A DNA stretch of 50,925 nucleotides, from positions 1 to 50,925 of the forward strand of contig PXAT01000014.1 in NCBI GenBank assembly GCA_003565775.1, in the 5' to 3' direction. Positions within the stretch are counted from its first letter, which is position 1; every line of letters starts with the position of its first letter. The notes under the pieces are model-generated. The model was not told where the DNA came from. It ran no database searches and was given only the letters and a program-made list of their open reading frames with translations. The position numbers were made by a program, and so were the translations under genes. Origin of the DNA: Ectothiorhodospiraceae bacterium (GTDB taxonomy: Bacteria > Pseudomonadota > Gammaproteobacteria > Nitrococcales > Aquisalimonadaceae). Below are positions 1 to 50,925 of this stretch, one piece after another.

Positions 1-269
1 GGAGACGCTGATTTATTCGCACGTCCGCGTTGGCATTGCATTTTTTCCGAGGCAAGGCGCGCTGCGCAGCGCCGCAGTCATTCTGCGGTCAAGCAGCGCA
101 ACACAGCATTCGGGGAAAATGCGATGCAAACCCCTTGGGGCTCGGCCGATTCTGGCCCCTGGCAGTGTTGCGTCGCCGGCCCGGTAGCGACGGCTACGGA
201 ACCGCACCGCGCCTTGCCAGGCTGCCAAAATCGGCTCGAGCGCGAACGCGGGAATAGATCAGCGTCTCC
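1..269 (+). repeat. 260-bp palindromic MITE-like repeat, copy 1
   Basis: Non-coding element with imperfect terminal inverted repeats of about 30 bp: the left end starts GGAGACGCTGATTTATTC and the right end (252-269) is the reverse complement of GGAGACGCTGATCTATTC. A second, perfect 11-bp inverted repeat lies inside (51-61 against 208-218), so the whole unit could fold into one long arm. A G/C-rich block rich in CGCAGC and GCCGCAG words occupies about 50-115. It contains no credible gene; short open frames on both strands are by-products. Related copies lie at 19773-20035 and from 50668. It looks like a non-autonomous mobile element or large REP-type unit whose mobilising enzyme is not in the window. 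Confidence 0.8.
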
Positions 270-27934: not shown

Positions 27935-28324
27935 TCAGTCGCAGCGCGCCATCACGTCGATCTCCAGCATCAGACCGGGCAGGGCCAGGCTGCTGACCTC
28001 CACCGTCGTGTCTGCTGGATAGGGCGGCGTGAAATAGCGCTCGCGGCATTCAACGATCTGTTCGAAGTACCGCATGTCGGTGAGATAGATGTTGACCTTG
28101 AACACTCGGTCCAGGCCGGACCCGGCCTGACGCAGCACATGCTCCAGATTGCTGAAGACCTGGCGCGTCTGGGCCTCGAAGTCATCGACGCCGACCACAT
28201 TGCCGTCAGCGTCGATGGAGGCCTGGCCGGAGAGGTAGACGATACCGTTGACGACGCTGGCCTGACTGTAGGCGAACGGTTCGGCCCAGTCGAAGCCTGC
28301 ATCCAGCATGCGTGTTTCGTTCAT
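27935..28324 (-). CDS. RidA/YjgF-family protein lacking the catalytic Arg
   Basis: 129 residues from the ATG at 28324 with GAGGTGGG upstream; the open frame runs 29 codons further through a G/C-rich hairpin region with no homology. The Rid fold is clear (VVNGIVYLSGQ near 24-34, VFKVNIYLTDM near 74-84). In RidA proper an Arg at position 105 binds the carboxylate of the enamine/imine substrate; here that position is Asp105 (YPADTTVEV). It therefore belongs to the Arg-less Rid subfamilies, often found in catabolic operons, whose activity is different or unknown. Compare the three-domain Rid protein at 48974-50242, which keeps the Arg three times. Confidence 0.85.
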   Translation of the reverse strand: MNETRMLDAGFDWAEPFAYSQASVVNGIVYLSGQASIDADGNVVGVDDFEAQTRQVFSNLEHVLRQAGSGLDRVFKVNIYLTDMRYFEQIVECRERYFTPPYPADTTVEVSSLALPGLMLEIDVMARCD

Positions 28325-48847: not shown

Positions 48848-49006
48848 ATGAAAATGGCGGCCGTCATCAACGCTTTTGCGGTTCATTGTCCGGTGCCTTG
48901 TCCGGACAATGAACCCGGCGTCGGGCCTGCCGGCAATTCGCGAAGATCGCAAACTGGCGCCCATGAGCGCGTCCTATGCCGGCGGAGGCGTACCTTCAGC
49001 GTTTGA
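48848..49006 (+). pseudogene. Possible 5' stub of a dehydrogenase gene
   Basis: A 52-codon frame starts at an ATG five bases after a perfect AGGAGG. Its first residues, MKMAAVINAFAV, resemble the start of zinc-type alcohol dehydrogenases (MKAAV-x-x-F); after about residue 12 the sequence becomes Arg-rich and without family resemblance, and it runs antisense into the triple-RidA gene. The change falls at a 14-bp hairpin (48880-48915). The simplest reading is a gene truncated by insertion or recombination. It could also be a genuine small peptide. Confidence 0.3.
48880..48915. repeat. Perfect 14-bp inverted repeat, 8-nt loop
   Basis: GGTTCATTGTCCGG (48880-48893) and CCGGACAATGAACC (48902-48915). 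It lies 58 bases beyond the stop of the triple-RidA gene, on its downstream side, but neither strand has a T-run after it, so it is a weak terminator candidate. Its place at the end of the dehydrogenase-like similarity suggests a junction or an operator. Confidence 0.6.
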
Positions 49007-50242
49007 TACGATTGCGTCGATCTGGATCAAGGCATCCATAGGTAAAGCAGAGACGCCTACGACTCTTCGCGCAGGGGTGGCGTCGGGAAAGAAGCCCTTG
49101 TACACCTCGTTTACGGCTTCGATGGCTGAGATATCCTTGATGAAGATATTCACCTTGACCACGTCCTCCATGACATGACCGATGCTATCGACGATTTCCC
49201 TGATGTTCTTCAGGCATTGTTCGGTTTGTTCCTTTACGCCGCCGGCCACAATTTCTCCCGACTTCGGATCCATGGGTAGCTGGGCCGATAGATTGTTGTA
49301 ATGAGAAAAAACCACCGTCTGTGTGGACATGGGACATAACGGCGCGCGTTCGGTATTGCTCGCTTCCACAATGAGTCCGTGTCTATCCTCCACAGCCTGG
49401 GGAGGCGTGCCGTCTCCGTGCGATACTACTGCTTCAATCTGCACCAACGCATGCATGGGCAAAGCGGCAACTTCGATTACGGTTCTTGCCGGAACATATG
49501 CTGCGGCTCTGGCGATGGCGGAATCCGGGAAGAACCGCCTGTATACCTCGTTTACCACCTCGATATCAGCGATGTTCTTGAGAAACAAATTGATTTTGAC
49601 AATATCGTCAAAAGGAACATCGATGCTTTCCAGGATTGCCTTGATATTTTTCAGGCACTGCGCGGTCTGCTCTCTTATGCCACCAGCAACCAGTTGACCG
49701 GATTTCGGATCGATCGGTAACTGAGCCGAAAGATTGTTGTAATGTGAGAATGCCACGGTCTGCGTCGACAACGGATCCATTGGCGCATTAACGGTGTTGT
49801 TCGCAAGCCTGATGAGGTCACCCGGCTGCGGTGCGTTCGGAATCGTGCCGACACCGTTAGAGAGAAGTGCTTCAACTTGCACCAGGGCATCCAAGGGTAA
49901 AGCGGCAACGGCAACAACCGTTCGCGTCGGCAAATAGCTGGTGAAGAAGGTCCTGTACACTTCGTCTACCGTGTCAACATCGTCAATGTTTTTGACGAAC
50001 ACGGTTATTCTGACGACGTCAGTCATTCGATGCTCGATGCTTTCCGCGATCGCCTTGATATTTTCAAAGCACTGAGCAGCCTGCTCTCTTACCCCACCAG
50101 CAACCAATTGACCGGATTTCGGGTCGATCGGCAACTGAGCCGAAAGGTTGTTGTAATGAGAAAAAGCGACTGTTTGTGCGCATAAGGGGTTTATGGGTGC
50201 CTGGTCCGTGTTTCTTGCTAATACCGCGTTATCGTTGCTCAT
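48974..50242 (-). CDS. Protein of three tandem RidA domains
   Basis: 422 residues from the ATG at 50242; the frame extends 48 codons upstream without homology. Three RidA/YjgF domains lie in series: about 1-135, 140-280 and 285-422. Each has the QTVAFSHYNNLSAQLPIDPKSG-like opening (Met for Ile in the third) and a V-A-A-L-P-type closing strand. The Arg that binds the substrate carboxylate in RidA is kept in all three (Arg107 in LPTRT, Arg253 in VPART, Arg392 in TPARR); the late Glu is Glu, Glu and Asp. RidA normally forms a trimer of single-domain chains, so this may be a covalent trimer that hydrolyses reactive enamines/imines. Base composition is visibly less G/C-rich than its surroundings, which suggests transfer. 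Confidence 0.9.
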   Translation of the reverse strand: MSNDNAVLARNTDQAPINPLCAQTVAFSHYNNLSAQLPIDPKSGQLVAGGVREQAAQCFENIKAIAESIEHRMTDVVRITVFVKNIDDVDTVDEVYRTFFTSYLPTRTVVAVAALPLDALVQVEALLSNGVGTIPNAPQPGDLIRLANNTVNAPMDPLSTQTVAFSHYNNLSAQLPIDPKSGQLVAGGIREQTAQCLKNIKAILESIDVPFDDIVKINLFLKNIADIEVVNEVYRRFFPDSAIARAAAYVPARTVIEVAALPMHALVQIEAVVSHGDGTPPQAVEDRHGLIVEASNTERAPLCPMSTQTVVFSHYNNLSAQLPMDPKSGEIVAGGVKEQTEQCLKNIREIVDSIGHVMEDVVKVNIFIKDISAIEAVNEVYKGFFPDATPARRVVGVSALPMDALIQIDAIVSNAEGTPPPA

Positions 50243-50667
50243 GTTAATGCCCTCTATCGCTGTATCCGTCAGCTCGATGGCTCGACATCGATCTCCTGAT
50301 CCTGGTCGGAGTGTAGTCTTTCGGCGGTGAGCTCGCCGATTGCCCCGGCGAATGTGAGGTCTCACTCCCGCTGAAACCCGAGGCAAAACGGTTGCAATGA
50401 CTTGGAGCGATTTGTCTCACAAGCCTTGAGCGGCTGTCTCACGAAAGGTGGAATTCTCTCGGGGCAATCTCGTGAATGCTGAAATCTGCAAGTAGTCATT
50501 AAGCCGCCCGAGGCAGGGCAACCGGTCGAAACAGGCGTTTCATCAGCCTCCGGCCTCTCGCGCCTCAAGCGAGATGGCAAGCATGGACATGACATGTCCC
50601 GCTGCCTGGTCGCCGGTTGACCCAAGAAAACGTGGCTATCGTGAGCAAGGCTGCCAAGGCCGCTTAA
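50243..50667. other. Upstream region of the triple-RidA gene
   Basis: 425 bases without a convincing gene; an 87-codon antisense frame has no recognisable domain. Composition is mixed. It holds the repeated TGTCTCAC words described separately. No sigma-54 core was found, which sets this gene apart from the regulon to its left. Confidence 0.45.
50358..50442. promoter_or_regulatory. Repeated (G/T)GTCTCAC words upstream of the triple-RidA gene
   Basis: GGTCTCAC at 50358-50365 (part of the palindrome GTGAGGTCTCAC) and TGTCTCAC at 50413-50420 and 50435-50442. The last two are 22 bases apart, close to two helical turns. They lie 115-200 bases before the start codon and could bind a regulator; no known regulator site is recognised. 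Confidence 0.35.
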
Positions 50668-50925
50668 GGAGACGCTGATTTATTCGCACGTTCGCGTTGG
50701 CATCGCATTTTCTCCGAGGCAAGGCGCGCTGCGCAGCGCCGCAGTCACTCTGCGGTCAAGCAGCGCAAAACAGCAATCGGGGGAAATGCGACGCCAACCC
50801 CTTCGGGCTCGGCCGATTTTGGCCCCTGGCGGTGTTGCGTCGCCAGCCCGGTAGCGACGGCTACCGAACCGGCACCGCGCCTTGCCAGGCTGCCAAAATC
50901 GACTCGAGCGCGAACGCGGGAATAA
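50668..50925 (+). repeat. 260-bp palindromic MITE-like repeat, copy 3 (cut by window end)
   Basis: Begins GGAGACGCTGATTTATTC exactly like copy 1 and follows it along its whole length with scattered substitutions and small indels. It ends in GGGAATAA at the window edge, about 13 bases short of the right terminus. The inner hairpin CGGTAGC/GCTACCG is perfect here but one base off in copy 1. Same orientation as copies 1 and 2. Confidence 0.8.

Follow-up and report, generated by a model that had tools for sequence, protein, structure and literature searches.

RidA proteins guard cells against reactive enamines and have been studied as symmetric homotrimers, in which no single site can be changed alone. 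Chorismatase, in turn, has been described as a single chain resembling the RidA trimer. The closest described relatives of the gene reported here belong to a type that Niehaus et al. named "3x-RidA" in 2015, which they proposed to be a covalently linked trimer and for which they gave EF_0115 of Enterococcus faecalis as an example; the term appears in one passage only of the main text, and no function is given (PMC4433059). In the literature that we searched, this was the only paper in which the name was found. A preliminary description of the locus had left room for three-domain RidA proteins being already common and characterized; they are indeed a known type, and it is their characterization that the same search did not find. 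Two further papers touch on the E. faecalis locus. The accessible portion of one reports that a single population evolved under ciprofloxacin had a mutation located between EF_0115 and EF_0116 (PMC6834293), and in that of the other EF0115 occurs only as a table marker of a transferable island (PMC3084688).

In the RidA/YjgF family, Tyr17, Gly31, Asn56, Asn88, Arg105, Pro114 and Glu120 are totally conserved and line the pocket between subunits, according to the accessible text of the TdcF paper (PMC1884159). In RidA, the Arg of one subunit grips the ligand carboxylate and the Glu of its neighbour adjoins the C2 group (available sections of PMC4960622), and this Glu is retained by the subfamilies Rid1 to Rid7 (available sections of PMC4433059). 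The same sections of these two papers describe Arg-to-Ala mutants of RidA as almost inactive and Glu-to-Ala mutants as having much activity still.

A three-domain chain and its predicted fold

The window, by which we mean the whole stretch of 50,925 nucleotides that was analysed, carries on its minus strand one unbroken frame of 422 residues (Table 1). Its product matches PF01042 at 252.9 bits (Pfam cut-off 27.3) and TIGR00004 at 283.5 bits (NCBIfam cut-off 106.25), each in three stretches, which places it above the curated cut-offs of the Rid superfamily. A search of the window's own genome also recovered three separate RidA domains, together with two other PF01042 matches, one on contig C17 and one at 27944-28273 of the window. 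Pfam, NCBIfam and this search agree that the single chain with three RidA domains, as the preliminary description had it, is real. We also looked for a frameshift that could have distorted the gene; 79 of the 80 homologous loci (the best 80 of 190) are open over 419-429 residues, the remaining one, L065, being shorter at 377, so the frame is no artefact. The search for other multi-RidA architectures led to the type named in PMC4433059 and to 190 relatives confirmed in genome contigs. The gene is a typical member of 3x-RidA, and its architecture was already known.

Table 1. Features of the 3x-RidA gene, in positions of the window.
Feature	Positions	Strand	Basis
3x-RidA gene, 422 aa + stop	48974..50242	-	Profile matches; start Met coincides with start of homologues
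RidA domain 1, residues 1-131	49850..50242	-	PF01042 stretch 49865-50158; alignment to E. coli RidA
RidA domain 2, residues 132-282, insert of ~8 residues near 241-248	49397..49849	-	PF01042 stretch 49424-49759
RidA domain 3, residues 283-422	48977..49396	-	PF01042 stretch 49007-49291; alignment
SHYNN motif, domain 1	50147..50161	-	SHYN[NH] three times in 91/94 proteins
SHYNN motif, domain 2	49733..49747	-	Same motif count; DNA pattern scan
SHYNN motif, domain 3	49292..49306	-	Mostly SHYNH in relatives
Arg107 codon (E. coli Arg105 position, domain 1)	49922..49924	-	Arg in 82/94 members
Arg253 codon (Arg105 position, domain 2)	49484..49486	-	Arg in 87/94 members
Arg392 codon (Arg105 position, domain 3)	49067..49069	-	Arg in 93/94 members
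Gln122 codon, replaces pocket Glu120, domain 1	49877..49879	-	Gln in 92/93
Gln268 codon, replaces pocket Glu120, domain 2	49439..49441	-	Gln in 94/94
Gln407 codon, replaces pocket Glu120, domain 3	49022..49024	-	Gln in 94/94

AlphaFold2 models were built on 79 family members. The best of them has a pTM of 0.89 and a mean pLDDT of 83.7, the linkers being its weak parts, and the other four range in mean pLDDT from 78.5 to 67.8. Among solved structures, the best single-domain matches of the model are RidA proteins, and the best whole-chain match is chorismatase 4bps, with Foldseek TM scores of 0.50/0.62 over 377 columns; VIA-align superposes the two with a Z of 27.5 over 287 residues at 2.8 A, across model residues 27-413. 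By this comparison, the predicted model has the whole-chain fold of the solved chorismatase. An internal trimer should superpose over the whole of its three domains, so the match is consistent with one, and, as the preliminary description had suggested and the model predicts, the three domains probably fold in this way.

Pockets with glutamine and an unevenly kept arginine

For the comparison of residues, we used a set of 94 rows, which excludes three identical rows as well as L086, the copy of the window itself, and includes L065 and L084; both of the latter were omitted from an alignment of 79 rows. The three domains of the 94 members were aligned with E. coli RidA, leaving out domain 1 of L065 (too short), which gave 281 domains; L002, a weak single-domain match, was excluded from this comparison. 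The Glu120 position is occupied by Gln in 280 of these, the sole exception being a Glu in domain 1 of L084, and the Gly31 position by Ala in 277 (93/93, 94/94 and 90/94 for domains 1, 2 and 3), the other four having Gly. Asn56 is kept in 93/93, 94/94 and 86/94 of the respective domains, and Tyr17 in 68/93, 0/94 and 6/94, with a one-residue deletion that makes the alignment there less certain. In domains 1/2/3 of the window protein, the residues are C/S/S for Tyr17, A/A/A for Gly31, Q/Q/Q for Glu120 and D/N/N for Asn88, with Asn56, Arg105 and Pro114 retained, so the full set of seven pocket residues listed in PMC1884159 is not present. The E. faecalis protein WP_002367615.1 has the same Gln/Gln/Gln and Ala/Ala/Ala as the window protein.

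Single-domain paralogues from the carrier genomes served as a control, comprising 34 of the 36 PF01042 matches found outside the fused gene (14 of 15 genomes have any), with two weak ones of G449 absent. Glu120 is present in 34/34 and Gly31 in 32/34, the other two being gapped at that position; in nine of the 34, Arg105 is missing in the alignment and Glu120 is kept nonetheless. Ten further single-domain proteins have both Glu and Gly (10/10). Within the sequences sampled, then, the Gln/Ala pair is a mark of the fused family.

The position of the catalytic Arg105 of the RidA imine deaminases is filled in the window protein by Arg107, Arg253 and Arg392, as the preliminary description had noted. 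All three are present in 75 of the 94 proteins, one is missing in 18, and two are missing in one (L067, domains 1 and 2). Counted by domain, the Arg is lost in 12/94 domain 1s, 7/94 domain 2s and 1/94 domain 3s, and the fewest changes that the tree requires are 8, 6 and 1, respectively. If a third of the events were expected in each domain, finding one of 15 in domain 3 would have a one-sided binomial probability of 0.019, not corrected for the choice of that domain, and the excess of Arg loss outside domain 3 in these sequences is only suggestive. We infer that the pocket using Arg392 is under the strongest constraint of the three. The Gln/Ala pocket in all three domains and the uneven fate of the Arg are what we report as new, since we found no description of either in the literature searched, which was mostly without subscription journals.

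The motif SHYN[NH] recurs in each domain of the window protein, and the few members that depart from the usual three copies (3/94) have two. At the DNA level, the pattern HYN[NH]-x-[ST]-A-Q-x-P has exactly three matches per genome in 9 of 398 Bacillota genomes, which are the same nine that carry the gene; no match was found in the other 389, nor any for a reversed control pattern, in a scan that was exact and so misses altered motifs.

The preliminary description had treated a Glu in domains 1 and 2, replaced by Asp in domain 3, as an active-site residue. This was an error of position, as the residue lies two past Glu120 and corresponds to E. coli Glu122 (Arabidopsis Glu182), the catalytic Glu120 being Gln in all three domains; Glu122 and Glu182 are described in the available sections of PMC4960622 as forming an inter-subunit salt bridge. 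Neither the Asp nor the insert in domain 2 can be seen as local divergence, since the Asp is found in 94/94 members of the set (and in 5 of the 10 single-domain proteins, with Glu in WP_002367615.1) and the insert in 92/94, being missing in L100 and L101. Of the proposed specialized, asymmetric trimer, specialization still finds support, through the replacement of Glu120 by Gln and of Gly31 by Ala in all domains; the Asp and the insert as its cause do not. A salt-bridge pairing between Arg78 of domain 1 and Asp409 of domain 3 was also considered and set aside: 82 of 94 proteins combine R, K, K and E, E, D, but the departures covary poorly, so we claim no domain order.

Age, spread and surroundings of the gene

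The likeness between the DNA of domains 1 and 2 had been taken as a sign of recent duplication within this genome, which would have produced a new asymmetric enzyme. These are indeed the closest pair in the window protein, with 65% identity (87/133) and 70% in DNA, compared with 53% for domains 1 and 3 and 61% for domains 2 and 3. Nevertheless, each of the three is 74-88% identical to the closest same-position domain in another genus, which exceeds the 53-65% seen within the chain and leaves a recent duplication unsupported. A tree was made of 45 domains of 15 proteins and 11 single-domain proteins. On it, each of the three domain classes requires one change, with modest supports of 79, 90 and 71 for domains 1, 2 and 3, and so does the class of single-domain proteins, with a support of 99. 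This grouping by position across genera and the occurrence of full-length homologues in several phyla both speak against a local event, which we consider extremely improbable; judging from these comparisons, the triplication is old and not recent.

The best 80 of the 190 confirmed relatives were kept, which biases the set toward close ones; they are 72-82% identical in the best segment and belong to Bacillota, Bacteroidota (Flavobacteriaceae), Pseudomonadota, Fusobacteriota, Synergistota and Thermodesulfobacteriota. Whole-genome samples show 3x-RidA to be uncommon: it was found in 7 of 398 in the window's phylum (its own genome included), in 9 of 398 in Bacillota, the phylum of a Bacillus carrier (that carrier included), and, in the phylum to which a Flavobacterium carrier belongs, in 1 of 296, namely the carrier itself. 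The fused gene was found in none of 39 genomes related to that of the window (3 of the same genus, 10 of the family and 26 of the order; completeness 78-100%), which all gave only single-domain-sized matches. At 0.518, the G+C content of the gene is below the 0.631 of the window, and that of its frame, 0.523, is the lowest of 27 long non-overlapping open frames, the other 26, some of which are perhaps not genes, lying between 0.592 and 0.675. The low G+C content, from which the preliminary description had suggested acquisition from elsewhere, and the failure to find the gene in any of the 39 relatives bear that suggestion out, and lateral acquisition of the window gene is thus supported by sequence comparison.

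Among the best 80 of 190, the nearest relatives are those of Azoarcus taiwanensis, Marinospirillum alkaliphilum and an Oceanospirillales bin. In Azoarcus, too, the gene has a low G+C content, 0.53 with flanks at 0.64, and in the other two the values for gene and flanks are closer (0.46/0.42 and 0.49/0.54). Relatives were found in 12 plasmid records (10 of Vibrio, 1 of Photobacterium and 1 of Enterococcus). Seven records of Vibrio parahaemolyticus have relatives about 60% identical, on plasmids of 84-104 kb. Lateral spread is the simplest reading of the distribution, and, given that the phyla are strongly clustered on the protein tree, most of it is not recent.

No widely shared neighbour gene emerged when the neighbours in the 80 loci (the best 80 of 190) were clustered. 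The flanks, taken out to 800 bases, contain 127 frames of 110 aa or more; seven of these share the strand of the 3x-RidA gene and are no more than 150 bases from it, and four of the seven form one Flavobacterium cluster. In these four Flavobacterium loci (L077, L078, L081 and L085), the 3x-RidA gene follows the gene of that cluster, which in L078 is a urea transporter (PF03253), after 106-119 bases on the same strand. The preceding gene stands at the end of an apparent urease cluster, and the L078 genome has a Urease_alpha match about 6 kb upstream. A general link to urease was rejected, as among 15 carriers besides the window's genome full-strength Urease_alpha matches occur in two (Flavobacterium L078, L043) and weak ones in three (E 1e-4 to 8e-4); in the genome that the window comes from, two strong matches lie on contigs other than this one. 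In five clostridial loci (L039, L050, L061, L069 and L072), a divergent MerR-type gene lies just upstream of 3x-RidA, and the regulator of L039, the sole one of the five scanned, combines MerR with a GyrI-like domain; being confined to these five loci, such a neighbour was likewise rejected as a general partner. In the E. faecalis locus L121, the genes downstream are annotated as MepB, PLP-dependent aminotransferase family, ornithine cyclodeaminase and PhzF.

Scanning for a promoter and a terminator yielded no signal above chance. Both ends of the contig carry a dispersed repeat of about 262 bases (window 50664-50925 and 1-256). Not counting the self-match, the genome of the window contains 42 long matches to it that are 80-98% identical (window 1-256 among them; 256 first-look candidates, 40 scored), and a further 12 short opposite-strand matches point to imperfect inverted ends some 65 bases long, which would make it MITE-like.

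Function and comparison with known systems

With a probability of roughly 0.6, we read the window gene as encoding an acquired, tethered RidA trimer of altered specificity and unequal sites, which would act on a small carboxylate imine or a related ligand. The three domains would pack together as an internal version of the RidA homotrimer, creating three non-equivalent pockets at the domain joints. In each pocket, the Arg could, as it does in RidA, bind a small ligand by its carboxylate, and the neighbouring domain would contribute Gln in place of Glu120, whereby the negative charge would be lost and a hydrogen-bonding group kept; Ala would stand in place of Gly31, which normally leaves room for Glu120. 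A small 2-imino or 2-keto carboxylate would thus still be bound, and an imine or enamine probably hydrolysed with altered specificity. Given that Glu-to-Ala mutants of RidA retain much of the activity and Arg-to-Ala mutants almost none, a Gln pocket with Arg plausibly works, and the loss of Arg from some domain 1s and domain 2s (in L067 from both) argues against three working RidA sites.

A simpler view would hold that the protein is an ordinary RidA deaminase with the same hydrolysis of 2-aminoacrylate and iminobutyrate, in which the fusion stabilizes the trimer and the Gln is neutral. Most domains do keep the Arg, S. enterica RidA was hardly affected when Ala took the place of Glu120 (available sections of PMC4433059), and in G444, a metagenome bin without another PF01042 match, the fused protein could be the only RidA. 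We consider this unlikely, however, because Gln for Glu and Ala for Gly are fixed across the family, against Glu in every single-domain paralogue of the control, and because an ordinary activity would often be redundant in carriers, 14 of the 15 sampled having further PF01042 proteins. It is also doubtful that the protein is not a deaminase, serving instead in binding or sensing or catalysing another reaction, as chorismatase does with the same overall fold. Chorismatase is the best whole-chain match of the predicted model, Glu120 is replaced in every pocket, Arg is lost repeatedly and the exact HYN pattern occurs among the 398 Bacillota genomes only with the 3x-RidA gene, all of which would suit such a role, but identity to chorismatase is a mere 12-15%, Arg392 is nearly invariant and the match to the RidA family model TIGR00004 is strong. 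Tentatively, one can also envisage a separate functional subfamily that is more than a tethered RidA, in which the coordinately changed Gln/Ala pockets and the three HYN motifs, possibly with three His near the pseudo-threefold axis, serve a new reaction or ligand, and in which tethering has allowed two Arg sites to decay, leaving a single asymmetric pocket, that of Arg392, as the working one.

If the tethered trimer with unequal sites is the correct reading, 3x-RidA would be a trimer that occurs naturally as one chain and whose sites can be mutated one at a time. Part of this experiment seems already to have taken place in nature, where the Arg would be dispensable at two of the sites and is almost invariant in the remaining one. 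Furthermore, should the Gln/Ala pocket turn out to act on a different substrate, the bare label "RidA family protein" would misdescribe genes in several phyla.

Like the 3x-RidA of 2015, the window protein has three tandem RidA domains in one chain, seen as three PF01042 stretches in one frame. The comparison with E. faecalis rests on the "RidA family protein" WP_002367615.1 and not on the sequence of EF_0115; it is 68% identical to the window protein (286/422) and differs from it in having Lys at the first Arg position and Glu instead of Asp in domain 3. With the RidA/YjgF homotrimers (E. coli RidA, TdcF; TIGR00004), the window protein shares the domain fold, Arg105, Asn56, Ser30 and Pro114, whereas it is a single chain, has Gln for Glu120 and Ala for Gly31, lacks Tyr17 (Cys, Ser and Ser) and has Asp for Asn88 in domain 1. 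Chorismatase (4bps, 5ag3, 5a3k) has, by comparison with the model, a similar arrangement of RidA-like units in one chain, at 12-15% identity.
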